A stretch of 64,000 nt of DNA. Source: Akkermansia muciniphila. Lineage in GTDB: Bacteria; Verrucomicrobiota; Verrucomicrobiia; Verrucomicrobiales; Akkermansiaceae. The DNA is taken from the NCBI RefSeq assembly GCF_018709685.1, contig NZ_JABDHQ010000001.1, forward strand, positions 186,001 through 250,000. The letters run 5' to 3'. Below, piece after piece: positions 626-13,267 of the stretch. The notes beneath the pieces are model-generated. The model searched no databases. It was not told where the DNA came from and saw only the letters and a list, made by a program, of their open reading frames with translations. Made by a program: the position numbers and the translations under genes. Numbering within the stretch: position 1 is the stretch's first letter; each line of letters opens with the position of its first letter.

Positions 626-1516
626 GTTATAATAATTCCGGCAGAATTTGATGAATAACTCATTGATTCTGCTGTGGTCTCCGTGCCCGGTGGCAAAATG
701 GAAGGAGCGGCGGATTTCCAATTGGCGGACGTGGATTTTTTTCAGATCCCCGCGTTTGAGTTCTTCCCGGACCGCGAGGGAGGAAAGAAAGGAACAGGCG
801 GGCGAATGCGCCAGATACAGCTTGATGCTCTCCGTGTTCCCCAGAGTCATCAGGATATTAAGACCGGAAGTGGTTATTCCGTGCGCCTTCAGGGCTTCCT
901 CCACCACCCGGCGTGTTCCGGACCCCGGCTCCCGCATAATCAGGGGAACGCCGGAAAGCTGGGGAAGGGAAAGCCCTTCCCGCGGCACGGCGGCGTGGGC
1001 GCCTCCGGCCAGAATAATTTCATCCTCCATGAAGGGCAGGTAATGCAGGTCCGTCCGCGTTGCTGTGCCTTCCACGATGCCCAGCTGCACGGCTTCATGC
1101 TGTACGGCCTGCTCCATTTCTTCCGTATTGCCGCTTTTCAGCCGTATCCTTATCTCCGGATAATGGCGGTTGAACAGGGCCAGCAGCGGAGGCAGCACGT
1201 ACTGGGACATGGTGGAGCTGGCCCCCAGGCTCAACTCTCCGGAAATGGGGGCGTTCCTGCCGGAAGACATGTCTTCCTCCAGCGTTTCATATTCTTTCAG
1301 AATGCGGCGGGAATGAGCCAGCAGGCGTGCGCCTTCCGTCGTCAGGGCGATGCCGCGGCCCTCCCTCTTGAAGAGTCGCACGTCCAGCAGACGTTCCAGT
1401 TCCTTGATATGGCGGGTGACAGCCGGCTGGGTAATGAACAGCTCCTCCGCCGCGCGGGTGAAGTTAAGCCGCCGCGCAACGGTCTCGAACACTTTCAGCC
1501 GGAAATCCGTAATCAT
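617..1516 (-). CDS. LysR-type transcriptional regulator (CysL/YeiE-like)
   Basis: A 299-residue LysR regulator. The first ~60 residues form the winged helix-turn-helix (FRLKVFETVARRLNFTRAAE, then QPAVTRHIKELE). The rest is a periplasmic-binding-like effector domain with GELSLGASSTMSQYVLPPLL and the phosphate/sulfate-binding-like turn REPGSGTRR typical of CysL and CbbR relatives. The start is placed at 1516 because MITDFRL aligns with the usual N-terminus; an ATG at 1537 would add seven residues. The neighbour on the same strand is the YeiH-like transporter, so this protein probably controls that gene in response to a sulfur or nitrogen compound (inference). Confidence 0.9.
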   Translation of the reverse strand: MITDFRLKVFETVARRLNFTRAAEELFITQPAVTRHIKELERLLDVRLFKREGRGIALTTEGARLLAHSRRILKEYETLEEDMSSGRNAPISGELSLGASSTMSQYVLPPLLALFNRHYPEIRIRLKSGNTEEMEQAVQHEAVQLGIVEGTATRTDLHYLPFMEDEIILAGGAHAAVPREGLSLPQLSGVPLIMREPGSGTRRVVEEALKAHGITTSGLNILMTLGNTESIKLYLAHSPACSFLSSLAVREELKRGDLKKIHVRQLEIRRSFHFATGHGDHSRINELFIKFCRNYYNKI

Positions 1517-1844
1517 GGAATGATGGCATTCAACCATTTCACCCGGTCCCCGGCAAGGTTCTTTCCCGGTTTCTACGGGCTGATAAAAAATACTTTCCCG
1601 GAGAATTGGATTACAAAATCACTCCTATAAGCGGTAATACCCGGTTTTTCATGGGTATGAATAAGTCCCCGGAAGCAGCTTGCTCTGTGGTGGCCATGCA
1701 AGACAGAAAGGAGGGAAAGTTTTGAATGTGGATTCGTTTCTGATTGAAGGTCAGATTGTTGTTTGCTGTGAATGAACCCCGGAAAAGGTTTTGCGGTCAC
1801 TCATGGTCTGAACGGTTGCGGGCGGAAGGGACTCCAATGCCTAT
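1517..1844. other. Divergent intergenic region, no gene seen
   Basis: This gap separates the divergent LysR and lipoprotein genes, so it should carry both promoters. A short imperfect hairpin (TACCCGG...ATGGGTA, around 1637-1657) is visible. I see no convincing coding frame or RNA gene. Confidence 0.4.
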
Positions 1845-2264
1845 ATGAAACTGCAATCCATGATCATTGTCGGCGGCGCCAGCCTTTTACTGCTGGGAGC
1901 CTGTTCGCCTTCATCCTATCAGACTACGTTTCCGGAACCGGCCTATGTGAAGGTTTCCACCAATAACGGAGCGTATGCGCCTTATCCGGATAATCCCGCG
2001 GGCCAGCAGGAACTGGTCTACTGGTATGATTCCCTGACCACCCCCATGACCGTGGTGGCGGAAGTGCCCCCTACCCCCATTGTGACCAAGGGGCCCGGCC
2101 CGGTGATACTTGATTCCGACGGTTTTTCCGCCAAACTGTACCGCGACAGGACGGAAGTGAAGAAGAAGGACAAGGACGGCAACTGGGTCACCAGCGTGCG
2201 CCCCACCACCCCTGCCGACCAGCGCATGAGGAATTATCTGATTGCTTCCAAGAAGGCCCGCTAA
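1845..2264 (+). CDS. Small predicted lipoprotein, unknown function
   Basis: A 139-residue protein beginning MKLQSMIIVGGASLLLLGAC, a type II signal peptide with lipobox LLGAC, so the mature protein would be lipid-anchored at about Cys20. The mature part is Pro/Thr-rich in the middle (MTVVAEVPPTPIVTKGPGP) and ends in a basic, charged tail with DRTEVKKKDKDGNWVTSV. I do not recognise a family. It stands alone between a divergent regulator and a convergent operon, and is followed by a strong terminator. Confidence 0.75.
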   Translation: MKLQSMIIVGGASLLLLGACSPSSYQTTFPEPAYVKVSTNNGAYAPYPDNPAGQQELVYWYDSLTTPMTVVAEVPPTPIVTKGPGPVILDSDGFSAKLYRDRTEVKKKDKDGNWVTSVRPTTPADQRMRNYLIASKKAR

Positions 2265-2299
2265 CCGCGGCTTTCATCAATTAGAACACGTTTAACCGC

Positions 2300-2339
2300 A
2301 TCCGGCCCGCTTTCCCCTTGAACGGGAAGCGGGCCGGAT
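2300..2339. terminator. Rho-independent terminator, probably bidirectional
   Basis: A strong stem pairs ATCCGGCCCGCTT(T)CCC with GGGAAGCGGGCCGGAT, with one bulged base, around the loop CTTGAAC. It lies between the convergent lipoprotein gene and the GH43 operon and could stop transcription from both sides. Confidence 0.8.
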
Positions 2340-2377
2340 TCATGGCAGGAGCACTCCTCCTTTCAGGAGGGAGGCGC

Positions 2378-3487
2378 TTACAGGTCTTTCAGCGTCCATT
2401 CATCCTTCCATTCCAGAATAATCTGGTCCCCGTCCCATTTCATGGGCAGCCACATGTGCCGCCCGTCAATGGCGTTTTTGGGCCTCCAGATGTCCGCCAT
2501 GAAGATGAATTTGCCGGGCTTGCCTTGCACGGGCAGGATGTAGGTGCTCTGGCCGCCGAAGGTGATGCCGGCTTTTGGCCCCACGCAGGGGTTCTTGAGT
2601 TCCGTCCACGGTCCGGCGATGTTCTTGGCTACGGCGCTGCGGGCGGCATTGGGCGCCCAGCCGGAGCACCCGGAAGCGATGAGGTAGTATTTCCCGTTGT
2701 GTTTGCAGATAGCCGGGGCTTCCATGTAGCGGTTGACGAAGGCCCGGACATATTTTCCCGTATGTCCCGTGTAGTCCGGCGTCAGTTCCGCGATGTGCAG
2801 GGTGATGTTGCCTTCCGAAGAGTAGATGTGGTAGGCCTTTCCGTTGTCGTCCACAAAGATGGTCATGTCCCGGCTCATCTGGCCTCCCGGGTAATCCCTG
2901 CGGATGATGCGGACGTAGTCGGGCATCTCCTTGGTGAACTCGGTCGTCCGGTCCTTTTTGTCCAGGTTCGCGGGCCATTTGCCCGGGTTGACGCGCCCGG
3001 CTTTCAGGAATGTGAACGGCCCCGTGGGTTTTGTGGCCGTCGCCACGCCAGCGTACGCGGAGCCGTAACCCTTCCCCTTGAGTTCCAGATGGAACCACAT
3101 CACGTATTTTTTAGTCTTTTTGTTGTAGACCACCTTGGGGCGTTCCAGGATGCATCCTTTGGCGATGGGGTGGGAGTTGTCCCCTTCCACCACTTTCAAC
3201 GCAATGCCTTCATCCTTCCAGTTGTACAGGTCCTTGGAGGAGTAGCAGTGCACGCCTACCTGGGCGCGGTTTCCGGCGTCTCCCTCCACCTTGTGCTCCC
3301 CGTACCAGTAGTAGGTGCCCTTGTCGTAAAGGATGCCGCCGCCGTGGGCGTTAATGTGCACGCCGTTGTTGTCCGTCCAGATTTCTCCCGGCTTGAAAGA
3401 CGTGTGCCTGACGGGGGCGTCAGCCGTGGCAACGGGGAAAAGGCAATAGGCCAGCCCGGCAAAAAAAGTAAGCAGAAGCGGTTTCAT
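2378..3487 (-). CDS. Secreted GH43-family glycosidase, paralog A
   Basis: A 369-residue protein with a signal peptide (MKPLLLTFFAGLAYCLFP, cleavage near residue 23). It matches the five-bladed beta-propeller GH43 family. INAHGGGILYDKGTYYWYGE near residues 45-64 is a hallmark of one GH43 subgroup. Asp39 is a possible base, Asp207 in SRDMTIFVDD the likely pKa modulator, and Glu256 in MEAPAI the likely general acid. GH43 enzymes remove arabinose, xylose or galactose units from polysaccharides; the substrate here is unknown. The start is the ATG at 3487, because the longer frame uses a TTG. It is the last gene of the run, 21 bases after paralog B. Confidence 0.88.
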   Translation of the reverse strand: MKPLLLTFFAGLAYCLFPVATADAPVRHTSFKPGEIWTDNNGVHINAHGGGILYDKGTYYWYGEHKVEGDAGNRAQVGVHCYSSKDLYNWKDEGIALKVVEGDNSHPIAKGCILERPKVVYNKKTKKYVMWFHLELKGKGYGSAYAGVATATKPTGPFTFLKAGRVNPGKWPANLDKKDRTTEFTKEMPDYVRIIRRDYPGGQMSRDMTIFVDDNGKAYHIYSSEGNITLHIAELTPDYTGHTGKYVRAFVNRYMEAPAICKHNGKYYLIASGCSGWAPNAARSAVAKNIAGPWTELKNPCVGPKAGITFGGQSTYILPVQGKPGKFIFMADIWRPKNAIDGRHMWLPMKWDGDQIILEWKDEWTLKDL

Positions 3488-3508
3488 GAGCAATGTTTGT
3501 AAGAGGTG

Positions 3509-4654
3509 TTACATGTCTTCCAGTTTCCATTCATCCTTCCATTCCAGCTTGATCTGGTCACCGTCAAACTGGATGGGCAGCCACAGGTAGCGGCCGTCTA
3601 TGGCGTTTTGGGGCCTCCAGATGTCCGCCATGAAGATGAATTTGCCGGGCTTGCCATGCACGGGCAGGATGTAGGTGCTTTGGCCATCGAAGGTTCTCCC
3701 CGCCTTGGGCCCCACGCAGGGATTTTTGAGCTCCGTCCACGGTCCGGCGATGTTTTTGGCTACGGCGCTGCGGGCGGCGTTGGGCGCCCAGCCCGTGCAG
3801 CCGGACGCGATGAAGTAGTATTTCCCGTTGTGCTTGAAAATGGCCGGAGCTTCCATGAAACGCCCCGGGAAGACACGCACGAATTTCCCGGTGTGCCCGG
3901 TGTAGTCCGGCGTCAGCTCCGCGATGTGCGTGGTGCTGTTTTCTTCCGAGGAATAGATGTGGTAGGCCTTTCCGTTGTCGTCCACAAAGATGGTCATGTC
4001 CCGGCTCATCTGGCCTTTTTCAAAGTCTTTCTTGAACATGTCCTCGGAACGGACTCCTTCCGGCAGTGCGCTGGAGGTCAGGCCGGGTACTCCCTTGAAC
4101 GTCTTCATGGTCTGGTCCTTCTTGTCCATGTTCGCGGGCCATTTGCCCGGATTGACGCGCCCGGCTTTCAGGAAGGTGAACGGTCCGGTGGGCTTGTCAG
4201 CCGTCGCCACCCCGGCGTAGGCCGCCCCGTAGCCCTTCCCCTTGAGTTCCAGATGGAACCACATCACGTATTTTTTAGTCTTTTTATTGTAGACCACCTT
4301 GGGGCGTTCCAGGATGCACCCTTTGGCGATGGGGTGGGAGTTGTCCCCTTCCACCACTTTCAACGCGATGCCTTCATCCTTCCAGTTGTACAGGTCCTTG
4401 GAGGAGTAGCAGTGCACGCCTACCTGGGCGTAGTTCCCGGCGTCACCCTCCACCTTGTGCTCCCCGTACCAGTAGTAGGTGCCCTTGTCGTAAAGGATGC
4501 CGCCGCCGTGGGCGTTGATGTGCACGCCGTTGTTGTCTGTCCAGATTTGTCCGGGCTTGAAGGAGGAATGTTTTTCCTGGGTCTCTCCGGTGGAGACGGC
4601 GGCTGCGCCGCAAAACAGGCAAAGGGCGGCAAGTGATTTAAGAACCTTGGTCAT
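3509..4654 (-). CDS. Secreted GH43-family glycosidase, paralog B
   Basis: A 381-residue close relative of the next gene downstream, with signal peptide MTKVLKSLAALCLFCGAAAV. It has the same propeller motifs (possible base Asp40, Asp219, Glu268). It differs by about 12 extra residues around 183-215 (GVPGLTSSALPEGVRSEDMF), next to the active-site blade. Its ATG overlaps the stop of the preceding gene as ATGA, which implies translational coupling. Parts of the two GH43 genes are almost identical at DNA level, so they are a recent duplication or are kept alike by gene conversion. They may split work on related substrates. Confidence 0.88.
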   Translation of the reverse strand: MTKVLKSLAALCLFCGAAAVSTGETQEKHSSFKPGQIWTDNNGVHINAHGGGILYDKGTYYWYGEHKVEGDAGNYAQVGVHCYSSKDLYNWKDEGIALKVVEGDNSHPIAKGCILERPKVVYNKKTKKYVMWFHLELKGKGYGAAYAGVATADKPTGPFTFLKAGRVNPGKWPANMDKKDQTMKTFKGVPGLTSSALPEGVRSEDMFKKDFEKGQMSRDMTIFVDDNGKAYHIYSSEENSTTHIAELTPDYTGHTGKFVRVFPGRFMEAPAIFKHNGKYYFIASGCTGWAPNAARSAVAKNIAGPWTELKNPCVGPKAGRTFDGQSTYILPVHGKPGKFIFMADIWRPQNAIDGRYLWLPIQFDGDQIKLEWKDEWKLEDM

Positions 4655-5901
4655 GGCTGAGTGGATTTGGGCGTGGTTAGTGGTCCGGTGGGCGTGCCGT
4701 AGAGCTTGTCCCATGCGCGGGAGAGGGCGTACAGGGCATAACCGGTACCGTAGAATTTGTGGTAATTGTACAGGGGATAGTCCCACCAGGAACCGTCGTC
4801 GCCTTGCCGGGTGAGAATATCGTTCGCCAGCAGAGACGCATGCCGTTTTACCTTGTTTGGGGGCAGCATGTCCAGACACATTCCCGAATAATAATATCCA
4901 TAATAAAAAAAGTAGCCGGAGTTCTGGGCAAAACTTTCATGCGGCGTCGGCTTGTGAAGGGCCATGGTCAGCCAGCCGCGGCGGCTCCACAGACGGTCCA
5001 GCCCGTCAATGAGCTGGCGCAGGGAGACGGCTTCCGGCTCCCACAGCCTGAGGGCGTAATCGCAGGCGGGGGTGCGGGCCAGGCTGCCGGTATGGCGGTT
5101 GATGGGGCGCCCGGGATAGAAGGCGTGCCCCAGGGAATAAACGTAGGTTCCCGCCGGAGTCCGCTGGGATTTCAGGAATTTCAGCGCCCGGCGGAATACC
5201 TTGCCGTCCAGGGAAAGATTGAATGTCCTGCCGGCCATCCAGGAGGAGATGAGTACCGTTCCCGTCAGGAAGGAAGTGGGTTCCGCCGCGGGCCGCCGGC
5301 TGTAGCCCGTGTAGGTCAGGTAGCCCCAGCCGCCTTTGGCGGAGGCCAGTTCATTGAGCCGGTCCACCTGGAACCGGGCGCAGCCCATCAGTTCCCGGTA
5401 GCGCGGGCTGTTCCGGTCCAGGGCGGCTGCCCGCATGCTCATGGCGTCCAGCACGTAGGTGTGGGCCCAGGTGTTGTAAATGCAGAGGGCGTCTCCCCGT
5501 TTCAAATGGGGCATCGTCCGGATCAGGTAATCTTCCGCACGGGTCATGGCCTGCTGCACGGCCGGTTCGTTCCGCAGGGGGCTGGCGTTCAGCCCCGCGA
5601 TGCACAGGGCCGTGCTGGCCGTTTTAAACGTCAGGGGGCCATCCGGATAGGGGCAGAGGATGTTCCACGTGCCGATCACCCGGTGATCACCCCAGGAGCC
5701 GTCTTTGTTCTGGCTCTTCAGCAGGAAGTCCGCGCCGCGGCGGAACGCCCGGTCAAACTGCCCGGCTTCCGCAGGGGGAACGTCCGGGATTTTGGCGATG
5801 GGGACGGCATCCGCATTGCCGGGGGGGGCGGACTCCGCTTCCACTGCGGCAGCGTGCAGGGTGGCCGTCAGGAACAGGCTGGTCAGCAGCAGGCGGAACA
5901 T
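4651..5901 (-). CDS. Secreted prenyltransferase/squalene-oxidase-repeat protein, paralog B
   Basis: A 416-residue protein with signal peptide MFRLLLTSLFLTATLHAAAV. It carries QW-like repeats (LKSQNKDGSWG near the N-terminus, RQGDDGSWWDYPLYNYHKFY near the C-terminus), which indicate an alpha/alpha-toroid fold like squalene cyclases and complement thioester domains. The DxDD acid motif of class II terpene cyclases is not evident and the protein is exported, so terpene cyclisation is unlikely. The start at 5901 is chosen because it follows the previous gene by 4 bases and begins a signal peptide; the longer frame would overlap that gene. Function unknown. Confidence 0.8.
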   Translation of the reverse strand: MFRLLLTSLFLTATLHAAAVEAESAPPGNADAVPIAKIPDVPPAEAGQFDRAFRRGADFLLKSQNKDGSWGDHRVIGTWNILCPYPDGPLTFKTASTALCIAGLNASPLRNEPAVQQAMTRAEDYLIRTMPHLKRGDALCIYNTWAHTYVLDAMSMRAAALDRNSPRYRELMGCARFQVDRLNELASAKGGWGYLTYTGYSRRPAAEPTSFLTGTVLISSWMAGRTFNLSLDGKVFRRALKFLKSQRTPAGTYVYSLGHAFYPGRPINRHTGSLARTPACDYALRLWEPEAVSLRQLIDGLDRLWSRRGWLTMALHKPTPHESFAQNSGYFFYYGYYYSGMCLDMLPPNKVKRHASLLANDILTRQGDDGSWWDYPLYNYHKFYGTGYALYALSRAWDKLYGTPTGPLTTPKSTQP

Positions 5902-5905
5902 GGGT

Positions 5906-7141
5906 TCAGGGGGCGGGAGCCGGGCTTGGAGGGTACAGTGAATCCCGCACGCGGGAAACGGCAAACAGGGCATAGCCGGTGCCGTAGAATTTGTGGTAGT
6001 TGTACAGGGGGTAGTCCCACCAGGAACCGTCCTTTTCCTGCATGGGCAGCAGGTCGGCCGCCAGATGGGAGGCGTGGCGCTTCAGGCGTTCCGCAGGCAC
6101 TTCGGAAAGGCAGCGGGCGGCATAATAGTAGCCGTAGTAGAAGAAGTAGCCCGCATTCTGGGCAAAGCTTTCATGCGGGATGGGCTTTTTCACGGCCAGT
6201 GAAAGCCATCCTCCGCGGCTCCAGATGCGTTCCAGGCCGTCTTCCAGCTGAAGCCTGGAAATGAAGTCCGGATCATACTGGATCAGGGCCAGATCCCCCG
6301 CCGGGGTGCGGGCCAGGCTGCCGGTGTGGCGGTTGATGGGCCTGCCGGGGTAGAAGGAGTGGGAGAAGGAATAAACGTAGCTCCCGGCGGGAGTGCGCAG
6401 TTTTTCCAGCCCGGCCACCGCCCGTTTGAGGATGCGGGGATCAGGCTTGAGGCCGAAGGCCCGTTCCGCATCCTTGTAGGCGATCAGCACCGTGGCGGTC
6501 AGGAAGGAGGTAGGTTCTCCGATAGGGCGTTTGGAGAAAGTCTGGAACGTGTAATACCCCCAGCCGCCCTGGACGTCCGCCATCTGGTCCAGCGCTTCCA
6601 CTTGCAGTGCCGCTACTTTTTTCAGTTCCGCATACCGGGGGGAGTCTTCCGGAAGGCCCCGGGCCGCCCTGCACAGGGCGGAAAGTCCGTAGGCATGCCC
6701 CCAGACGCCGAGCACGGTGCGCGTATCTCCGCGTTTCAGGGTGGGAAGCGTGGTAAGCAGGTACTGGATAGCCTTGTCCAGAGCCGTTTTCACGACCGGG
6801 TCTTCCTTCAGCGGGCTGGCGAGCAGGCCGATGACGCACAGGGAGGTGGAGGCGGTCCTGAATGACCTGGGGCCTTCCGGGTAGGGGCAGATGACGTTCA
6901 GCCCCTTGGTGAGCGTATGGCTTCCCCAGGAGCCGTCTTTGTTCTGGTTGCCCAGCAGGAAATCCGCCGCCTTGCGGATGGAGGCGTCCAGTTTTTCCCG
7001 GGAGGGCGGCGGAACGTCCGGCACCTTGGCGATGGGGATGGTGTCCCTTTTCTCCTTCTTTGCCGTATTTTCCGGTTGCGCGGGAGCGCAGAACGCCGTG
7101 CAGGCGCCCAGGGCGGCGAGAAGGAGGATAGCCTTGTTCAT
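5906..7141 (-). CDS. Secreted prenyltransferase/squalene-oxidase-repeat protein, paralog A
   Basis: A 411-residue paralog of the following gene. It has a signal peptide (MNKAILLLAALGACTAFCAP), then the shared linker IPIAKVPDVPPP and repeats of the alpha/alpha-toroid type (LLGNQNKDGSWGS, MQEKDGSWWDYPLYNYHKFY). Both paralogs end in a conserved aromatic block (YNYHKFYGTGYAL) that may be the working surface. The gene sits between the HlyD-like adaptor (16-base gap) and its paralog (4-base gap). The fold is confidently inferred from the repeats; the role is not known. Confidence 0.8.
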   Translation of the reverse strand: MNKAILLLAALGACTAFCAPAQPENTAKKEKRDTIPIAKVPDVPPPSREKLDASIRKAADFLLGNQNKDGSWGSHTLTKGLNVICPYPEGPRSFRTASTSLCVIGLLASPLKEDPVVKTALDKAIQYLLTTLPTLKRGDTRTVLGVWGHAYGLSALCRAARGLPEDSPRYAELKKVAALQVEALDQMADVQGGWGYYTFQTFSKRPIGEPTSFLTATVLIAYKDAERAFGLKPDPRILKRAVAGLEKLRTPAGSYVYSFSHSFYPGRPINRHTGSLARTPAGDLALIQYDPDFISRLQLEDGLERIWSRGGWLSLAVKKPIPHESFAQNAGYFFYYGYYYAARCLSEVPAERLKRHASHLAADLLPMQEKDGSWWDYPLYNYHKFYGTGYALFAVSRVRDSLYPPSPAPAP

Positions 7142-7157
7142 GGCAGTCCGTAGGGGC

Positions 7158-8342
7158 TTACGCCTGCTGGTCCTTGATCGTCACCTGGACGGGAAGGCCG
7201 GGGGCGAAGATCTGGCTGGCGGGAACCTTGGGCGTGATGATGATGCGCCGCTTGCCGTCGGCACCCGGAATGGGGCTGGCTTCCGTGATCACGCCCGGAA
7301 TCTGCATGTTCGTCACCTTGATGATGACAGTTTCCCCTACCTTGGGCGTGGCGGTGGAATCCGGCAATGTGGCCTGAACGATCAGTTCCGAATCAGGGGG
7401 GACAATGGTGGCTATTTTATCAAAAGCTTCCAGCTTGCCGCCGGGTTTCAGCTTTTCCGCCACCGGAATGGCTACCCATTTGTCCGCCACGTAGCCGCCG
7501 TAAAGCAGGATGCCACTTTCCGGCGCCTTGAAGGCGGCCATTTCCCGGTCCGCTTTCAGTTCATTGTACTTGTCCTGGAGGCGGCGCAGGGAGACTTCCG
7601 CTTCCGTCAGGGCTATCTTTTTCTGTTCCAGGTCAAAGTCCGCCTGTTTTTTGGCTTCCGCCAGGTCTGTCTGCTTTTCCCTGACCGCGGTGGCGTAGTC
7701 TTCCCCCAGGCGGTGGATGTTGCGCAGCTTGGCAAGTTCCGCGACGAGCTTGGCCCCCTGCACGGCAAATTCGCTTTCGCCCAGTTCGTTTTTCAGGCGC
7801 TTCAGGATGATCTCTTCCGTTTCTTCCGCCACCTGGTCGTCCTTGTACATCTTGGTGAGCTGGTTCAGCTCCTCCTGCTTGTAGGACATGTGGCGCAGGG
7901 CCCGGTTCACGCGTTCCTCCTCTTCCGCCAGCATGCGGGCCTTCCGCTTTTCCAGAAAGTCCTTCTGGTCCTCTTCCGTGCGCGTCAGGGCGGTCTGGTA
8001 TTTTTGCAGGGCCATGGCGGAGCGTTCCTTCTGCTGGTCCAGGGCGTAGCGGAGTTTCAGCACTTCCAGGTTCTTGCTTTTAATGGTGCGTTCGTAGTCC
8101 TCAATGCTCCTGTCCAGAATGCGGAAGTCGGCCTGCGCCACGGATTCCCCCTTTTTTACGGAACTGCCCTGGGACATGATGCCCAGGAGGAAGATGTCTG
8201 AGGTTCCCTTGGGGGAGAAGGAAATGGATTTGGTATTCTTTTTGGGCAGCAGGATGCCCGGGGCGATGGAGTCCGCCATGGCGGGGACTCCCATGAGGAG
8301 GGCGGCCAGAAGGCCGGCGGTGGTGAGGGATATGCGCTTCAT
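7158..8342 (-). CDS. HlyD-like periplasmic adaptor/membrane-fusion protein
   Basis: A 394-residue exported protein (signal peptide MKRISLTTAGLLAALLMGVPAMA). It has a lipoyl-like half near residues 30-75, a long charged coiled coil over roughly 75-270 (many E/K/R/L heptads), the returning lipoyl half AFKAPESGILLYGG, and a beta-barrel portion ending PASQIFAPGLPVQVTIKD. This is the layout of HlyD/RND/MacA adaptors. The usual N-terminal membrane anchor is replaced by a cleavable signal. No ABC or RND pump gene lies beside it, so its partner is unknown. It is probably co-transcribed with the genes on both sides (14-16 base gaps). Confidence 0.82.
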   Translation of the reverse strand: MKRISLTTAGLLAALLMGVPAMADSIAPGILLPKKNTKSISFSPKGTSDIFLLGIMSQGSSVKKGESVAQADFRILDRSIEDYERTIKSKNLEVLKLRYALDQQKERSAMALQKYQTALTRTEEDQKDFLEKRKARMLAEEEERVNRALRHMSYKQEELNQLTKMYKDDQVAEETEEIILKRLKNELGESEFAVQGAKLVAELAKLRNIHRLGEDYATAVREKQTDLAEAKKQADFDLEQKKIALTEAEVSLRRLQDKYNELKADREMAAFKAPESGILLYGGYVADKWVAIPVAEKLKPGGKLEAFDKIATIVPPDSELIVQATLPDSTATPKVGETVIIKVTNMQIPGVITEASPIPGADGKRRIIITPKVPASQIFAPGLPVQVTIKDQQA

Positions 8343-8356
8343 ATGGAATGGTGAAA

Positions 8357-9037
8357 TCAGGACTGGTGGGCGGAGAAGGGGACGAAACGCCCCTTCTTTC
8401 CAAGAAGAACGGTGTGAAAGGTGGTTTTCTTTCCTTTATGTGAGGCAGGCACGGCTTCCGTGCTGACTTCAAAGCCCGCTTTTTGCAGGGTGCGGGCCAG
8501 GCGGGTGTCCGGCCGGGCTATGGTGATGACCAGCAGGCCGCCCTGCTTGAGCGCGGCAAAATAGTCGGAAGCCTCCGCCACGGTCAGGTTCATGCGCTCA
8601 TGCGTGGAGCGGCACAGGATGGCATGGAAGCTCTTCGGGTTCTTGCGGGCCACCTGGAGCGCGGAAGTAAATTCCACGCTGACGCGGGGATCATGCAGAA
8701 AGCCGGGGCGTTCCTTATCCAGCAACTGCTCATGCCAGTCCACGAGCTGTTTGCAGGGTTCCCCCACAATGAAGCTGGCTTTTTCCCTCTGCACCTGGTC
8801 CATCAGGGCAAACAGGGTGAATCCCAGGCCGAGGCCGTCCAGGAGAAAAGAGGGCTGGTTGGCCCTTTTTACCGGGGCTGCGGCCATGGCTGCGGCCGTT
8901 TCATTGCTTCCATGGGAAAAACTGGACGCCATCTGCATGCCGTCACGGAGAAGAAAATGAAAGCCGTCCCGTTCCCAGAGTTCAAGAAGGGAACCGTCAG
9001 GCAGGCTGGTGGAAGCTAATTTGGTAATGGGTTTCAT
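8357..9037 (-). CDS. Spermidine-synthase-like SAM-dependent methyltransferase-fold protein
   Basis: A 226-residue cytoplasmic protein. The glycine-rich segment FLLDGLGLGFTLFALMDQV and the following VDWHEQLL match the Rossmann core of spermidine-synthase-like proteins, and GGLLVITIARPD fits a later strand of the fold. The family usually transfers aminopropyl or methyl groups, but the N-terminal barrel is short and I cannot name a substrate. The ATG at 9037 is preferred over an upstream GTG at 9058. It is the first gene of the six-gene minus-strand run. Confidence 0.72.
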   Translation of the reverse strand: MKPITKLASTSLPDGSLLELWERDGFHFLLRDGMQMASSFSHGSNETAAAMAAAPVKRANQPSFLLDGLGLGFTLFALMDQVQREKASFIVGEPCKQLVDWHEQLLDKERPGFLHDPRVSVEFTSALQVARKNPKSFHAILCRSTHERMNLTVAEASDYFAALKQGGLLVITIARPDTRLARTLQKAGFEVSTEAVPASHKGKKTTFHTVLLGKKGRFVPFSAHQS

Positions 9038-9226
9038 ATGAAATAATGCCGGATACACAGCGTAGGAAAGAACGCTTTTCAGGGCAAGTCCGGACAGCGT
9101 GTTTAGGATGGAATACGGTTCAATTTGAAAAAAATTGCACGGAATTCAGGCTTTGCGCATTCTTTTTCTTGATTTACGGACGGAAATAAGCGAGAGCTAT
9201 CGTTCAGCACAGCTATTTTTTCCGAT

Positions 9227-9934
9227 ATGAGTAATCCACCTCCCCCCTCCATTCCGGGCGGTACTCCGCCCCCGCCCAGCATCCCGACTCCGCCGGCAGC
9301 TCCTTCCGTGCCCAGTGCACCGGCAGCTCCCGCGGCGCCTCCCGTAGCCGGCGCTCCTGCGGCTCCCGCCGCTCCGCCTGCCGCCGCTGCGCCCACCATC
9401 CCCCTGCGTCCCGCCGGACTTGGCGGCGGCATCAAGCTTGGCGGCGGGTTGAAGACGGTTGCTCTTGGTTCCGCCACCACGCCCATCACTCCTCCTGCCG
9501 GTGCGGCCCCCGCCGCCGCTGCGCCCACCGTTCCCCTGACGCCTCCCGGCGCAGGAATGGCTACCGCCCAGCTTCCGCAGGCCACCATCGGGCTGAATAC
9601 CGCTCCTGCGGCCGCTCCCGTTTCCTCCACTTCCTTTACGGCCAAGAAATTTGAAGAGGATACGCAAGCCGCCCCCAATACGCTGCTGAATGTCCTTTCC
9701 TTCGTGGCCCTGGCTTTTGCGCTGATTTTTGTTGGTTACCAATACTTCACGGATACTCTGGAATCCCGCAGCATGACGGGCTGGCTGGGCGGCGATTCCA
9801 AGCCCGCCGCCGCGGCTCCCTCCGCCGCTGATGAAGAAGCAACGGAGGATACGGCTGCTGACGAGCCTTCCGATGACGCTTCCTCCGACACAGCCGCTGA
9901 CGAGTCTTCCGACAGTGCGGATGCAGAAGAATAA
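9227..9934 (+). CDS. Pro/Ala-rich single-pass membrane protein
   Basis: A 235-residue low-complexity protein. Residues 1-150 are mostly Pro, Ala and Gly with PxxP-like runs. A hydrophobic segment follows (about 151-172, LLNVLSFVALAFALIFVGYQ), then an acidic Ala/Asp/Glu/Ser tail of about 45 residues. There is no signal peptide, so the proline-rich part probably stays in the cytoplasm and the acidic tail faces the periplasm. It lies 38 bases upstream of thioredoxin on the same strand and may share its transcript. Composition-rich proteins like this are hard to place in a family. Confidence 0.72.
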   Translation: MSNPPPPSIPGGTPPPPSIPTPPAAPSVPSAPAAPAAPPVAGAPAAPAAPPAAAAPTIPLRPAGLGGGIKLGGGLKTVALGSATTPITPPAGAAPAAAAPTVPLTPPGAGMATAQLPQATIGLNTAPAAAPVSSTSFTAKKFEEDTQAAPNTLLNVLSFVALAFALIFVGYQYFTDTLESRSMTGWLGGDSKPAAAAPSAADEEATEDTAADEPSDDASSDTAADESSDSADAEE

Positions 9935-9972
9935 GTGAACGTAATCCTTGTTGAACTACTCTAAGCGGTACT

Positions 9973-10290
9973 ATGGCAAACGTATTTTCTGAAGCAAATT
10001 TTGAGGACGAAGTTCTTAAGTCCGACATCCCTGTGCTTGTCGACTTCTGGGCTACATGGTGCGGCCCCTGCCGCATGATCGCCCCGATCATTGACCAGCT
10101 CTCCACGGAACTGGCCGGCAAGATCAAGGTGGGCAAAGTGGATGTGGACGCCAATAACGGCCTGGCCGCTACCTACGGCGTGCGCACCATCCCCACGCTC
10201 CTGATTATCAAGGATGGGGAAATCATGGACACGATGGTGGGCGCCTCTTCCAAGGACGCCATCATGCAGCGCTTGCGCCCGTTCATGTAA
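9973..10290 (+). CDS. trxA: Thioredoxin
   Basis: A 105-residue classic thioredoxin with active site W29-C-G-P-C33, the preceding PVLVDFWAT strand, the cis-proline loop VRTIPTLLI and the central Asp of the fold. It lacks a signal peptide, so it is the cytoplasmic dithiol reductant for ribonucleotide reductase and other proteins. It is followed directly by a terminator. Confidence 0.97.
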
Positions 10291-10311
10291 CCGGACTGGT
10301 TATTCATTCAA

Positions 10312-10350
10312 GGCGGCCTGTTGCGGATTCACCGTGGCAGGCCGTTTTTT
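10312..10350 (+). terminator. Rho-independent terminator after trxA
   Basis: The stem CGGCCTG (10314-10320) pairs with CAGGCCG (10338-10344) and is followed by a run of T, 20 bases after the trxA stop. Confidence 0.8.
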
Positions 10351-10510
10351 GTATAAGGGATGGGCCTGAATGATCCTGATGCAGGGAAGGGGAACGGTCG
10401 CCTTTCCTCCAGTCCGCGTGATTCCTTTTTTCTTGGCAGAGCCGTCATGGGAGAATACATTGTCAGTATAAATCCCGCGCCGCGGGATAGCCCTCAACTC
10501 CTTTTCCGTG

Positions 10511-11791
10511 ATGCGCTTCATCTCTTCAGTCCTGTCTCTTTTTTCCGCCTGCTGTCTTCTTTCCGCTGCATGGGGTGCGGGGGACATTGCGCCGGATTTG
10601 AAGTCCGGTGCGTTCTGGAATCTGCCTCAACCGGATTTGTTCGGAAAATATTTTAACGGGGAGTCCGGAGGCTGGGTGGACAAGGGAAAAACCCAGCTGC
10701 GGATTGCGAAGCCTGCGATCAAGCTGGGAAAAATGTCCCTGGGGGAAATGCTGGTGCATTGGAAGGAGGGCGTTCCCCAGTCCATGACCATCATGATGTA
10801 TAACAAGGGGGACAACGGGGCCATTGACAAGGAAGAGTTTGAAAAGCGCCTGGACCATATCCGGGAGGCCCTGACCGGGCTCACCGGTGTGCAGCCCAAG
10901 GAATACCGGGCCTCCCGCCGGGAGGCGGTGGTGAAAGTCAACGGCTGGTCCTGGAACTGGGACAAGGGGGCGATTGCCCTGGAGATCAATACGTCCAGGG
11001 AGGGCAGGGAATTTGAAGCGGAATTCATCCGGTTGAAGGCCGGCCCCACGGAGGCTTCCATTGCGCGGGGAGACACTTCCTCCCGCGCCAGGAAGGCTGA
11101 CGTGAAACAGCATGTCAGGAAGGAGGGAAAACGCGTGGTGATCCATGATATTCCCATGGTGGACCAGGGGCAGAAGGGGTATTGCGTGGTGGCTACGGCA
11201 GCCCGCATTTTTGCTTATTACGGGATGGATTACGTGGACCAGCATGAACTGGCTTCCCTGGCCAATTCTTCCGCTGAAGGAGGCACCAGCACGAAGGAAA
11301 TGGCGGAGAACCTGAAAAAGATCGGGGCGCGCTTCCAGATCCGGATCAAGGTGCTGGATTCCCTGACGGATGCCCGGGATTTCAGGAACCTGCTGAAAGC
11401 CTACAACCGCGCGGCGTCCAAATTGAAAAAGGAGAAGTTCGAGGATGAATATGACTGGCCCGGCTTCTGGGACAATGCGGACGGGGAAGTGTTGAAACTG
11501 GCGCGGGCCGGATCTCCGTCCCAGATGGATAAATGGCTTAATTCCATCAAGCCTTATATCTCGGCGGGCATTCCCGTACTGTGGTCCGTGCAGCTTGGAG
11601 TGGTTCCGGAACCGATGCGCATTTCCCAGACGCGCGGCGGGCACCTGAGGCTCATCATCGGCTTTGATGAGGAAAAGAAGACGCTGATCTTCTCGGATTC
11701 CTGGGGAGTGGAGCACACGGAGAAGGAAATGCCTTTGGCGGACGCCATTGCCATTACGACGGGGCGGCAGGTCATGCAGCCCTCCAAGTAA
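10511..11791 (+). CDS. Secreted papain-like (C39-type) cysteine peptidase
   Basis: A 426-residue exported protein (signal peptide MRFISSVLSLFSACCLLSAAWG). The C-terminal half carries a papain-fold triad: Cys225 in QGQKGYCVVATAARIFAYYG, His378 in RGGHLRLIIGFD and Asp396 in FSDSWG, as in C39-type peptidases. The N-terminal ~200 residues are unfamiliar and may be a pro- or targeting domain. ATG 10511 is used rather than the GTG just before it. It stands alone between trxA and asnS, so context gives no substrate. Confidence 0.8.
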   Translation: MRFISSVLSLFSACCLLSAAWGAGDIAPDLKSGAFWNLPQPDLFGKYFNGESGGWVDKGKTQLRIAKPAIKLGKMSLGEMLVHWKEGVPQSMTIMMYNKGDNGAIDKEEFEKRLDHIREALTGLTGVQPKEYRASRREAVVKVNGWSWNWDKGAIALEINTSREGREFEAEFIRLKAGPTEASIARGDTSSRARKADVKQHVRKEGKRVVIHDIPMVDQGQKGYCVVATAARIFAYYGMDYVDQHELASLANSSAEGGTSTKEMAENLKKIGARFQIRIKVLDSLTDARDFRNLLKAYNRAASKLKKEKFEDEYDWPGFWDNADGEVLKLARAGSPSQMDKWLNSIKPYISAGIPVLWSVQLGVVPEPMRISQTRGGHLRLIIGFDEEKKTLIFSDSWGVEHTEKEMPLADAIAITTGRQVMQPSK

Positions 11792-11884
11792 AGCGGCTTT
11801 GCCTCCCCTTCTTTCCCTGGCTGGAACGCCGGATTATTCTCCGCGCGGGAAGGTAATTCTGCTGGAATGGGAAGGGAGCTGTAT

Positions 11885-11890
11885 TATACT
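11885..11890 (+). promoter_or_regulatory. Candidate -10 element for asnS, nearly leaderless
   Basis: TATACT, overlapping TATTAT, ends only six bases before the asnS ATG at 11897, so transcription would begin at or within a base or two of the start codon. No clear -35 box is seen. Confidence 0.35.
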
Positions 11891-11896
11891 TGCGCC

Positions 11897-13267
11897 ATGA
11901 TCAGCAGAACATTGGTGAAGCATGCCCTGGCCAGTGAGGCGGAAATACCGGACGTACTGATTCAGGGCTGGGTGCGGACGCGCCGTGATTCCAAGGCCTT
12001 TTCCTTTCTGGAGGTAAATGACGGCTCCTCCGTGGCTTCCCTCCAGGTGGTGGCGGATGAAGGCATTCCCGGCTATGAACGGATCGGGGAGATGACTACC
12101 GGGTCCGCCGTGAGCATCCGCGGGGCTCTCGTCGCCGGGCAGGGCAGGCAGCGCTGGGAACTGCGCGCCTCTTCCCTGGAGCTGGTGGGGACCGCCCCGG
12201 ATTCCTACCCCTTGCAGAAAAAGGGGCATACGCCGGAATTCCTGCGTTCCATTGCCCATCTGCGGCCCCGCACCAACCTGTTCGGCGCCGTGTTCCGCAT
12301 GCGCAGCAGGCTGGCGTTTGCCATTCACCGGTTTTTCCAGGCCAGGGACTTTTCCTGGGTCAGCACGCCCATCATTACCGCCAGCGACTGCGAGGGAGCG
12401 GGTGAAATGTTCCGCGTAACGACGCTGGAAGTGGGTGACGCCGCTTCTCGGGACGCCGCCCGTGATTTCTTCGGCAAGGCGGCATACCTCACCGTGAGCG
12501 GCCAGCTGGAAGGGGAGGCCTTTGCGTGCGCCCTGAGCAATATTTATACCTTCGGCCCCACCTTCCGGGCGGAGAACTCCAATACCACGCGCCACGCGGC
12601 GGAATTCTGGATGGTGGAGCCGGAAATGGCCTTCTGCGACCTGCACGGGGACATGGACATGGCGGAAGCGTTCATCCGCTTCCTGGTCAGCGATGCCCTG
12701 GAAAACAGCGCGGAGGAAGTAGAATTCCTGACCAGGTTTGTGGACAAGGGGCTGAAAGAGCGGCTGGAGCATGTGAAGGAAACGCCGTTTGTGCGCTGTT
12801 CCTATACGGAGGCCGTGGACATCCTTCTCAGGAGTGGAAAGGCGTTTGATTATCCTGTTTCCTGGGGCATCAACCTCCAGAGCGAGCACGAACGCTTCCT
12901 GACGGAAGAGCATTTCAAGTGCCCGGTCATCGTGTACAACTACCCGAAGGAGATCAAGCCTTTCTACATGCGCCTGAATGAGGACGGTAAGACCGTTACC
13001 GCCATGGATGTGCTAGTGCCCGGCATCGGGGAAATCGTGGGAGGGAGCCAGCGTGAAGAGAGGCTGGACATCCTGCTGGAAAACATGAACCGCATGGGCA
13101 TGAATGAGGAGGCGTACCAATGGTATGCCGACCTGCGCCGTTACGGCACCGTGCCGCATGCCGGATTCGGCGCCGGGTTTGAACGCCTGCTGATGTTCAT
13201 TACCGGAGTGACCAACATCCGGGACGTGCTGCCCTTTGCGCGCACTCCGCGGAACTGTGAGTTTTGA
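11897..13267 (+). CDS. asnS: Asparaginyl-tRNA synthetase
   Basis: A 456-residue class IIb synthetase that charges tRNA-Asn. The N-terminal OB-fold anticodon-binding domain (residues ~15-110, [20 protein letters not shown]) is followed by the catalytic core with motif 2 ([20 protein letters not shown]) and motif 3 ([20 protein letters not shown]). The C-terminal [11 protein letters not shown] is characteristic of AsnRS rather than AspRS. The ATG at 11897 fits the family N-terminus. Its presence suggests direct Asn-tRNA formation. Confidence 0.97.

Follow-up and report, generated by a model that had tools for sequence, protein, structure and literature searches.

An HlyD-like adaptor and an exported toroid protein form the conserved core of an Akkermansia muciniphila operon

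We analysed a stretch of 64,000 nucleotides of Akkermansia muciniphila DNA, hereafter the window (contig NZ_JABDHQ010000001.1, positions 186,001 to 250,000, forward strand), which comes from an Akkermansia genome of 2.86 Mb that is 99.89% complete (G000). The analysis bears on an operon of six genes that encodes a spermidine-synthase-like protein, an HlyD-like periplasmic adaptor, two exported (alpha/alpha)6 toroid proteins and two glycosidases of family GH43. An earlier note, made from the letters of the window alone, had proposed that these six genes form one envelope system. Our comparison of loci in Verrucomicrobiota and Planctomycetota points instead to a smaller unit, made of the adaptor and the toroid. 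The features of the locus are as follows.

8357..9037, minus strand: spermidine-synthase-like protein with an S-adenosylmethionine-type fold, first gene of the operon, Akkermansia-type accessory gene; 226 amino acids, no signal peptide
7158..8342, minus strand: pump-less HlyD/MacA/EmrA-like periplasmic adaptor, core gene 1; 394 amino acids
7539..8123, minus strand: long alpha-hairpin of the adaptor, residues 74-268 (helices 74-168 and 173-268), from an AlphaFold2 model
7797..7874, minus strand: hairpin-tip motif of the adaptor, residues 157-182, the conservation peak of a 56-row alignment
5906..7141, minus strand: exported (alpha/alpha)6 toroid protein 1, core gene 2; 411 amino acids
4651..5901, minus strand: exported toroid protein 2, paralogue of toroid 1; 416 amino acids
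3509..4654, minus strand: exo-beta-1,3-galactosidase of GH43 subfamily 24 type (GH43a), accessory gene; 381 amino acids, match to 6EUG at E 7e-131
2378..3487, minus strand: second enzyme of the GH43_24 type (GH43b), accessory gene; 369 amino acids
2301..2338, minus strand: strong GC-rich hairpin 3' of the last gene, a possible transcript end, without a run of T

The operon and its conserved core

The description of the operon given in the earlier note was borne out. The six genes lie on the minus strand at 2378-9037 and are tightly packed, with gaps of 14, 16 and 4 nucleotides, an ATGA overlap at 4651-4654 and a last gap of 21 nucleotides, in agreement with the 4-21 nucleotides and single overlap that had been claimed. 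Two of the families are indeed tandem paralogue pairs, the toroids being 55% identical and the GH43 enzymes 81%. A crude heuristic found signal-peptide-like N-termini in five of the six products, the exception being the spermidine-synthase-like protein. The adaptor scored above the Pfam cut-off for HlyD_3 (PF13437; 28.1 bits versus 22.2) and has no pump gene beside it in the operon. DxDD, the acid motif of class II terpene cyclases, is absent from both window toroids. The identity proposed for the first gene was supported by a profile match to 1iy9 (E 2e-7), and its product also matched 1inl (E 1.4e-5, profile against PDB sequences); it scored below the cut-offs of Pfam and NCBIfam alike. Positions 1500-10500 were scanned for promoters and terminators; the minus strand showed no sigma-70-like site, terminators were not in excess (11 versus 12.1 expected), and the scan is uninformative either way.

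To follow the operon across relatives, both profiles were searched in 779 genomes (387 Verrucomicrobiota and 392 Planctomycetota), the adaptor being scored by a profile of its hairpin alone and the toroid at E<=1e-15, with E<1e-60 taken as strong. Stretches were fetched from 28 Verrucomicrobiota and 60 Planctomycetota; toroid matches under 60 bits were left out of the locus listing. An initial scan of genome contigs had returned seven loci, all from Akkermansia/Akkermansiaceae or Planctomycetota. The toroid profile matched 186 of the 392 Planctomycetota genomes and 27 of the 387 Verrucomicrobiota, the latter comprising 24 members of the window's family, in which the module is kept in four other genera, two members of family f40 and a weak match in G293. 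The adaptor hairpin motif was found in 151/392 Planctomycetota and 26/387 Verrucomicrobiota genomes, and all of these contained the toroid (177/177). Reciprocally, the adaptor was present in 159 of 161 genomes with a strong toroid (Planctomycetota 133/135, Verrucomicrobiota 26/26), and both exceptions, G526 and G676, have a toroid whose start is no more than ~750 bases from the end of a contig. Among Planctomycetota, the share of genomes with an adaptor fell to 16/23 for middling toroid matches (1e-60 to 1e-40) and to 2/28 for matches weaker than 1e-40, as would be expected if the weak matches are mostly other toroid families.

The two genes are also neighbours. An HlyD-like gene lies directly upstream of the toroid, on the same strand, in 13/13 Akkermansia loci, 55/60 Planctomycetota loci and 14/16 other Verrucomicrobiota loci (at L023 just a fragment of the gene, at a contig end). 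The Verrucomicrobiota exceptions are L021 and L033, the latter a weak relative (94 bits, 721 amino acids) found in G293 without adaptor and standing outside the strong set. In the Planctomycetota the adjacent adaptor is missing at L046, L054, L056, L066 and L072 (genomes G632, G474, G751, G455 and G468, respectively). The hairpin profile had no match in these five stretches, and each of the genomes had at least one match elsewhere, on another contig wherever the place was listed; at L066 the toroid gene begins right at the end of its contig, and a contig break may account for the missing gene. In the 66 adaptor-toroid pairs with gaps below 120 nucleotides, counted without the near-copies L014, L015 and L034-L041 and without toroids under 140 bits, the overlap was exactly 4 nucleotides in 21 and the gap 0-40 nucleotides in 28. 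Genes of the fetched loci were called by a composition-scored caller with profile matches forced in, replacing longest-open-reading-frame calling, which picked antisense frames in GC-rich loci; start codons of homologues are thus rough, and large negative adaptor-toroid gaps are 5' over-extensions of the calls, for example at L093.

In the loci fetched from outside Akkermansia, the adaptor and the toroid are the only genes that stay together. As these two persist without the other genes, the proposal that the six genes form one system was rejected: the conserved evolutionary core is two adjacent genes, adaptor and toroid, and the six-gene operon is not an evolutionary unit. Of the gene order that the earlier note suggested looking for in Verrucomicrobiota and Planctomycetota, the adaptor-toroid part is therefore kept, but the six-gene order was not found in the fetched loci beyond Akkermansia.

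The pair also occurs in multiplied forms. Tandem toroids, up to three copies, were seen in the Planctomycetota loci L068, L071, L073, L095 and L101, and L095 has two consecutive adaptor-toroid pairs. Eight Planctomycetota loci carry, upstream of the adaptor, a protein of 856-905 amino acids with PDZ domains and a weak match to the toroid profile (52-92 bits); in those that were read, the PDZ part is flanked by N- and C-terminal toroid-like parts. These toroid-like PDZ proteins are located as follows.

L085, 8355-11063, minus strand
L086, 8233-10839, minus strand
L087, 1616-4240, plus strand
L088, 7979-10570, minus strand
L090, 1712-4282, plus strand
L091, 1228-3945, plus strand
L092, 1304-3955, plus strand
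L097, 1382-4072, plus strand

The hairpin tip of the adaptor and the cavity of the toroid

The AlphaFold2 model of the adaptor (pLDDT 89.3, pTM 0.68) shows a hairpin of two helices of ~95 residues each, with the turn at 169-172. Its nearest folds are EmrA and MacA, and its profile was closest, among PDB sequences, to MexC-like (E 2.3e-36), MacA (5.8e-31) and also AcrA-like adaptors. Conservation peaks at the tip of the hairpin, where the family consensus for residues 157-182 is EExxQLxKMYxxDDLTEETEEIVLxR: residues 161-180 reached 3.05-3.22 bits per column, versus 0.9-2.4 in other ten-residue blocks. For this alignment, 73 of the 83 fetched adaptors passed the redundancy filter, and 55 of them plus that of the window made up the 56 rows; 11 short and seven over-extended copies were omitted, so the conservation figures describe full-length forms. 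Counts over all 83 adaptors, given below, include near-identical Akkermansia copies.

In pump adaptors, the tip carries the RLS motif (RxxxLxxxxxxS/T), which binds TolC (PMC3391258, cited from excerpts). The position aligned with its Arg is Gln in 82 of the 83 module adaptors and Glu in the remaining one, and the Gln is followed by Met or Leu and then by Thr, Ala or others. The RLS pattern occurs somewhere in 19/83 module adaptors, never at the aligned tip position; the pattern is loose, and this frequency is near the chance level that we estimated. As a control, 23 other adaptor-like proteins of four genomes, including near-copies between two Akkermansia genomes, were examined: none had the tip motif (0/23) and 14 had the RLS pattern, which in 12 cases lies between residues 126 and 180. 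The beta-barrel region is kept in 72/83 module adaptors. In the other 11, from 10 Planctomycetota loci, it is unrecognisable; the hairpin is kept with little else, and the toroid follows. One such gene, L093 4469-5134 (plus strand), encodes a hairpin-only adaptor of 221 amino acids with a lipoprotein-like N-terminus, directly before the toroid. Taken together, the conservation of the tip, the loss of RLS and the barrel-less copies suggest that selection keeps the hairpin tip over the pump side, and the toroid would be the obvious partner of this tip.

A different reading of the same data is that the adaptor serves an ABC (ATP-binding cassette) or RND (resistance-nodulation-division) pump encoded elsewhere, the toroid being a periplasmic substrate-loading or cargo protein. 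The closeness of the profile to MexC-, MacA- and AcrA-like adaptors and of the fold to EmrA and MacA speaks for it, as does the beta-barrel kept in most copies. However, with five genes taken on each side of the 60 Planctomycetota loci and rough gene calls, no pump family was common: the next most frequent neighbour families were each found in 7/60 loci, and a family that is ABC-ATPase-like by its first residues lay near the toroid in 4/60. This, together with Gln at the RLS Arg position and the 11 copies without a recognisable barrel, makes an unlinked pump improbable.

As regards the toroid, the predicted model (pLDDT 93.0, pTM 0.91, from 87 sequences) is an (alpha/alpha)6 barrel built of twelve main helices plus a short additional helix. 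Its nearest folds were tied, namely squalene-hopene cyclase (Z 23.1), a GH76 mannanase (22.8) and a GH88-type glucuronyl hydrolase (22.3), with sugar epimerases close behind, the glycan enzymes spanning Z 20-23; in the VIA-align list from which these values come, the absence of a family is no exclusion. The alignment comprised 85 of the 87 relatives that passed the redundancy filter, out of 108, plus the two window toroids. G70, G73, W147, G192, G193, Y196, Y257, R278, H323, Y332, G372 and D376 are invariant in all 87 rows, and R137, E324, Q66, G274 and T388, among others, are 97-99% conserved. According to the helix list, the conserved residues sit in loops before alternate helices and at the starts of these helices. 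In barrels of this kind, such loops and helix starts line the cavity.

The toroid matches PF13243 and contains QW-like DGSWG repeats. One alternative is a hopanoid or terpenoid enzyme pair, which is how a study of bile tolerance in A. muciniphila reads AMUC_RS03775, one of its terpene-cyclase-like genes taken as hopanoid genes (PMC7671984, excerpts). Squalene-hopene cyclase is among both the sequence and the fold relatives, and in that study the toroid message rose slightly under ox bile. Against it stand the export signals and DxDD, lacking in the window toroids and found in just 3/108 sequences of the family, which led us to disfavour the toroids as hopanoid cyclases. Moreover, the sequence match to cyclases falls mainly on a region of ~80 profile positions that holds the QW-type repeat. 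This alternative is very improbable. With the Pfam glycoside hydrolase families there was no match above cut-off, the sole such row being GH88 at E 0.089.

Another alternative is a scaffold or spacer, in which a hairpin oligomer plus the toroid would be a non-catalytic tether in the periplasm or at the outer membrane of bacteria of the Planctomycetes-Verrucomicrobia-Chlamydiae (PVC) group. It is in line with the hairpin-only adaptors, with the PDZ-bearing toroid relatives beside eight modules and with lipobox-like N-termini, which a heuristic assigned to 27/108 toroids and 7/83 adaptors. The invariant H, R, D, Y and W that map to the predicted cavity side, however, resemble a ligand site and not an assembly surface, and we regard a pure tether as unlikely.

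In a tree of 87 toroids, the Akkermansia sequences grouped together (100/100) and, weakly supported (89/73), stood beside other Akkermansiaceae, the family as a whole being mostly planctomycetal. Old vertical descent is a plausible account of this pattern, and horizontal transfer a possible one. G000 has further PF13243-matching proteins, at C23:117925-121439 (L002, L003 and L006), C34:39066 (L001) and C9:21155 (L005). Three of them are consecutive, of ~500 amino acids and apparently membrane-anchored. As the toroid profile (E<=1e-15) picked up none of them, they belong to different families.

Glycosidases and transcripts in Akkermansia

Among solved structures, GH43a is closest to 6EUG (E value as listed above); further galactosidases and exo-beta-1,3-galactanases come next. 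An alignment with 6EUG and the Phanerochaete enzyme shows that GH43a retains the acid Glu, the Glu that binds C4 and the Gln substituting for the Asp base. GH43b, as judged by its alignment with GH43a, has the same stretches. The roles of these residues in GH43_24 are taken from excerpts of PMC7939473; GH43_24 enzymes of A. muciniphila have been assayed as candidate beta-galactosidases (PMC11790493, excerpts). By its sequence, the window pair is subfamily-24-like, of the exo-beta-1,3-galactosidase type.

Twenty-three Akkermansia genomes (the window's own, the same species and the same genus) were among the 387 Verrucomicrobiota searched. The toroid was present in 13 and absent from 10, and all 13 show the order spermidine-synthase-like gene, adaptor, toroid, toroid; given this recurrence, the arrangement is not due to chance. 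A relative of the spermidine-synthase-like protein (32%) was found in one other Akkermansiaceae locus, L026. At L017 (G217, C1:1450248-1451448), toroid 2 is split between two frames and the other five operon genes are present. The slot downstream of the toroids is more variable: both GH43 genes occupy it in 10 of the 13 modules and a single GH43 in one (G024), while a GH36 alpha-galactosidase fills it at L011 and L016, with a GH20 one gene beyond at L016. In G228, which is of the GH36 type, a GH43 lies at 1.66 Mb versus the module near 0.46 Mb, more than 1 Mb apart. A search for the GH43 over 40 genomes found it in 7, five of which (all but G790 and G799) were also examined for the module; G005, G066, G102, G134 and G190 have neither the module nor this GH43. 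The GH43/GH36 swaps and this pattern of presence indicate that the glycosidases are an exchangeable addition: the GH43_24 enzymes were added in Akkermansia to an older envelope module.

One could nevertheless regard the locus as an ordinary operon for mucin degradation that carries adaptor and toroids as incidental passengers. GH43_24 is known as a family of exo-galactosidases, and Amuc_0697 and Amuc_0698 are tabulated as important for growth on mucin (PMC12834350, a 2026 table, excerpt). Yet adaptor and toroid are conserved without glycosidases in two phyla, and the glycosidases differ between Akkermansia lineages, so that this explanation is already disfavoured and we give it hardly any weight.

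Expression data are available from the bile study. We infer, partly from consecutive numbers and products, that the operon includes AMUC_RS03775/03780 (terpene cyclase/mutase) and AMUC_RS03785/03790 (beta-glucanase), as these are named in excerpts of PMC7671984. In ox bile, RNA-seq gave a log2 change of +0.21 for the toroid gene RS03775 and of -0.638 and -0.814 for the two beta-glucanases, that is, the GH43 enzymes (same excerpts). These opposite changes indicate that toroid and GH43 messages can part company, and there are hints of an internal promoter or of separate decay for the GH43 stretch (2378-4654) despite the ATGA overlap at 4651-4654. The earlier note had taken the operon for a single transcript unit; its tight packing holds, but the ox-bile data, as excerpted, partly favour separate units. 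A literature search with the locus tags Amuc_0693-0698 found one open-licence paper.

Beside the operon, the window contains divergent genes at 9227-13267 (plus strand), which encode a Pro/Ala-rich protein and, as judged by eye, a thioredoxin-like and an asparaginyl-tRNA-synthetase-like protein. These divergent neighbours are also retained next to the module at L011 and L016, two deep Akkermansia loci. A plasmid origin was considered and dropped, its sole trace being a Parabacteroides plasmid with a single GH43 match of 217 bases.

Proposed mechanism and comparison with known systems

We propose that the two core proteins, adaptor and toroid, form an obligate export module, in which an adaptor of the HlyD/MacA/EmrA kind would work without a pump. 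Its hairpin tip, having lost the TolC-docking Arg, would hold the toroid through the family-specific tip motif. A pocket of the toroid formed by R137, W147, Y257, R278, H323, E324, Y332 and D376 would bind or process a polar ligand, for which a glycan is the most likely candidate. In Akkermansia, the complex would have come to share an operon with the exo-glycosidases of the slot downstream (two GH43_24 or a GH36), which might trim the same or a neighbouring glycan. For this joint reading, a pump-less module with tip docking and a glycan ligand, we estimate a probability of about 0.5; it is to be read as a claim of partnership, the rest being its likeliest detail. The parts differ in strength. 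That adaptor and toroid act together is highly probable. Docking of the toroid at the hairpin tip, suggested by the conservation mapped on the model, is reasonably likely. A glycan as ligand, argued from analogy of fold, is put forward tentatively, at slightly less than even chances, and the chances that the toroid acts as an enzyme and does not simply bind its ligand are about even. As to the idea in the earlier note of an envelope system that trims a polysaccharide, the envelope location stands and trimming fits the glycosidases, but handling of a glycan by the core itself is something we infer.

Several observations weigh against the proposed partnership or its details. Among Planctomycetota with a middling toroid match, 7/23 have no adaptor, and the second toroid copy of L021 stands alone. 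Of the best 150 adaptor places, 123 have a listed toroid directly downstream and 27 do not, and of the best 150 toroid places, 21 have no listed adaptor just upstream; some of these unpaired places correspond to a contig end, a second copy or a tandem copy. As the genomes are related, the co-occurrence counts also overstate independence, for which reason a Fisher value calculated from such counts was given no weight. Docking is argued from sequence conservation and adjacency, and the conserved toroid residues, placed from secondary structure only, would line the cavity as a pocket. The (alpha/alpha)6 fold serves terpene cyclases too. In the 60 Planctomycetota loci no recurring glycan enzyme lies beside the module, so the glycan reading leans on Akkermansia and on resemblance of fold. 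Finally, one study recorded opposite shifts for the transcripts of a toroid and of the GH43 enzymes (PMC7671984, excerpts).

A broader possibility starts from selfish polysaccharide uptake and periplasmic storage, which have been reported for Verrucomicrobiota and Planctomycetota. The module may be an undescribed periplasmic machine of the PVC group, in which adaptor oligomers freed from the pump present toroid heads that process glycans, serving such uptake and storage, and which in Akkermansia was turned to mucin by added exo-galactosidases. We consider this single, joint reading speculative and rather unlikely.

The module is of interest for several reasons. A homologue of drug-pump adaptors that no longer docks to a pump and that, across two phyla, goes with a different protein would point to a second use of this architecture in bacterial envelopes. 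The Akkermansia toroids are annotated as terpene cyclases, and our finding questions the annotation used in the published bile-tolerance model (PMC7671984, excerpts). Lastly, two genes, a tip motif and a supposed pocket make a compact target for studying how these bacteria handle large periplasmic glycans.

Compared with MacA, EmrA, AcrA, MexA and HlyD, the module adaptor shares profile matches, an export signal and, in most copies, the lipoyl domain, long hairpin and beta-barrel. It differs from tripartite-pump adaptors in having no common pump neighbour, Gln at the RLS Arg position, its highest conservation at the tip, some barrel-less copies and an obligate toroid partner. With squalene-hopene and other class II terpene cyclases, the toroid has in common the (alpha/alpha)6 barrel (Z 23.1), the DGSWG repeats and PF13243; unlike them, it is exported, consists of a single small barrel, lacks DxDD in the window copies and has other invariant residues. 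GH76, GH88/GH105 and AGE-type epimerases resemble it in fold (Z 20-23) and in polar and aromatic invariant residues at the predicted cavity side, but Pfam gave no family-level sequence match to these enzymes above cut-off.

The window GH43 enzymes share the Glu acid, the C4-recognising Glu and the Gln base with the GH43_24 exo-beta-1,3-galactosidases BT3683 and Pc1,3Gal43A, but no carbohydrate-binding domain was found in them, and they form a tandem pair in an adaptor-toroid operon. Akkermansia MUL1 and MUL2, which PMC13174399 treats along with glycan storage in the Verrucomicrobiota periplasm, share the genus and the mucin setting. MUL1 is Sus-like and non-syntenic in aquatic relatives, and MUL2 (amuc_1099-1102; pilin, PilM) differs from the window module in gene content and lies elsewhere (PMC13174399).

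Among the open-licence papers listed by searches with adaptor, toroid and squalene terms, none was seen to describe the pair. The module fails the defining tests of both its parent groups, the adaptors by having no RLS tip and no pump at the locus, the cyclases by lacking DxDD and being exported. We know of no described system with an adaptor-toroid pair: the parts have known folds, and as a system the pair appears to be new.

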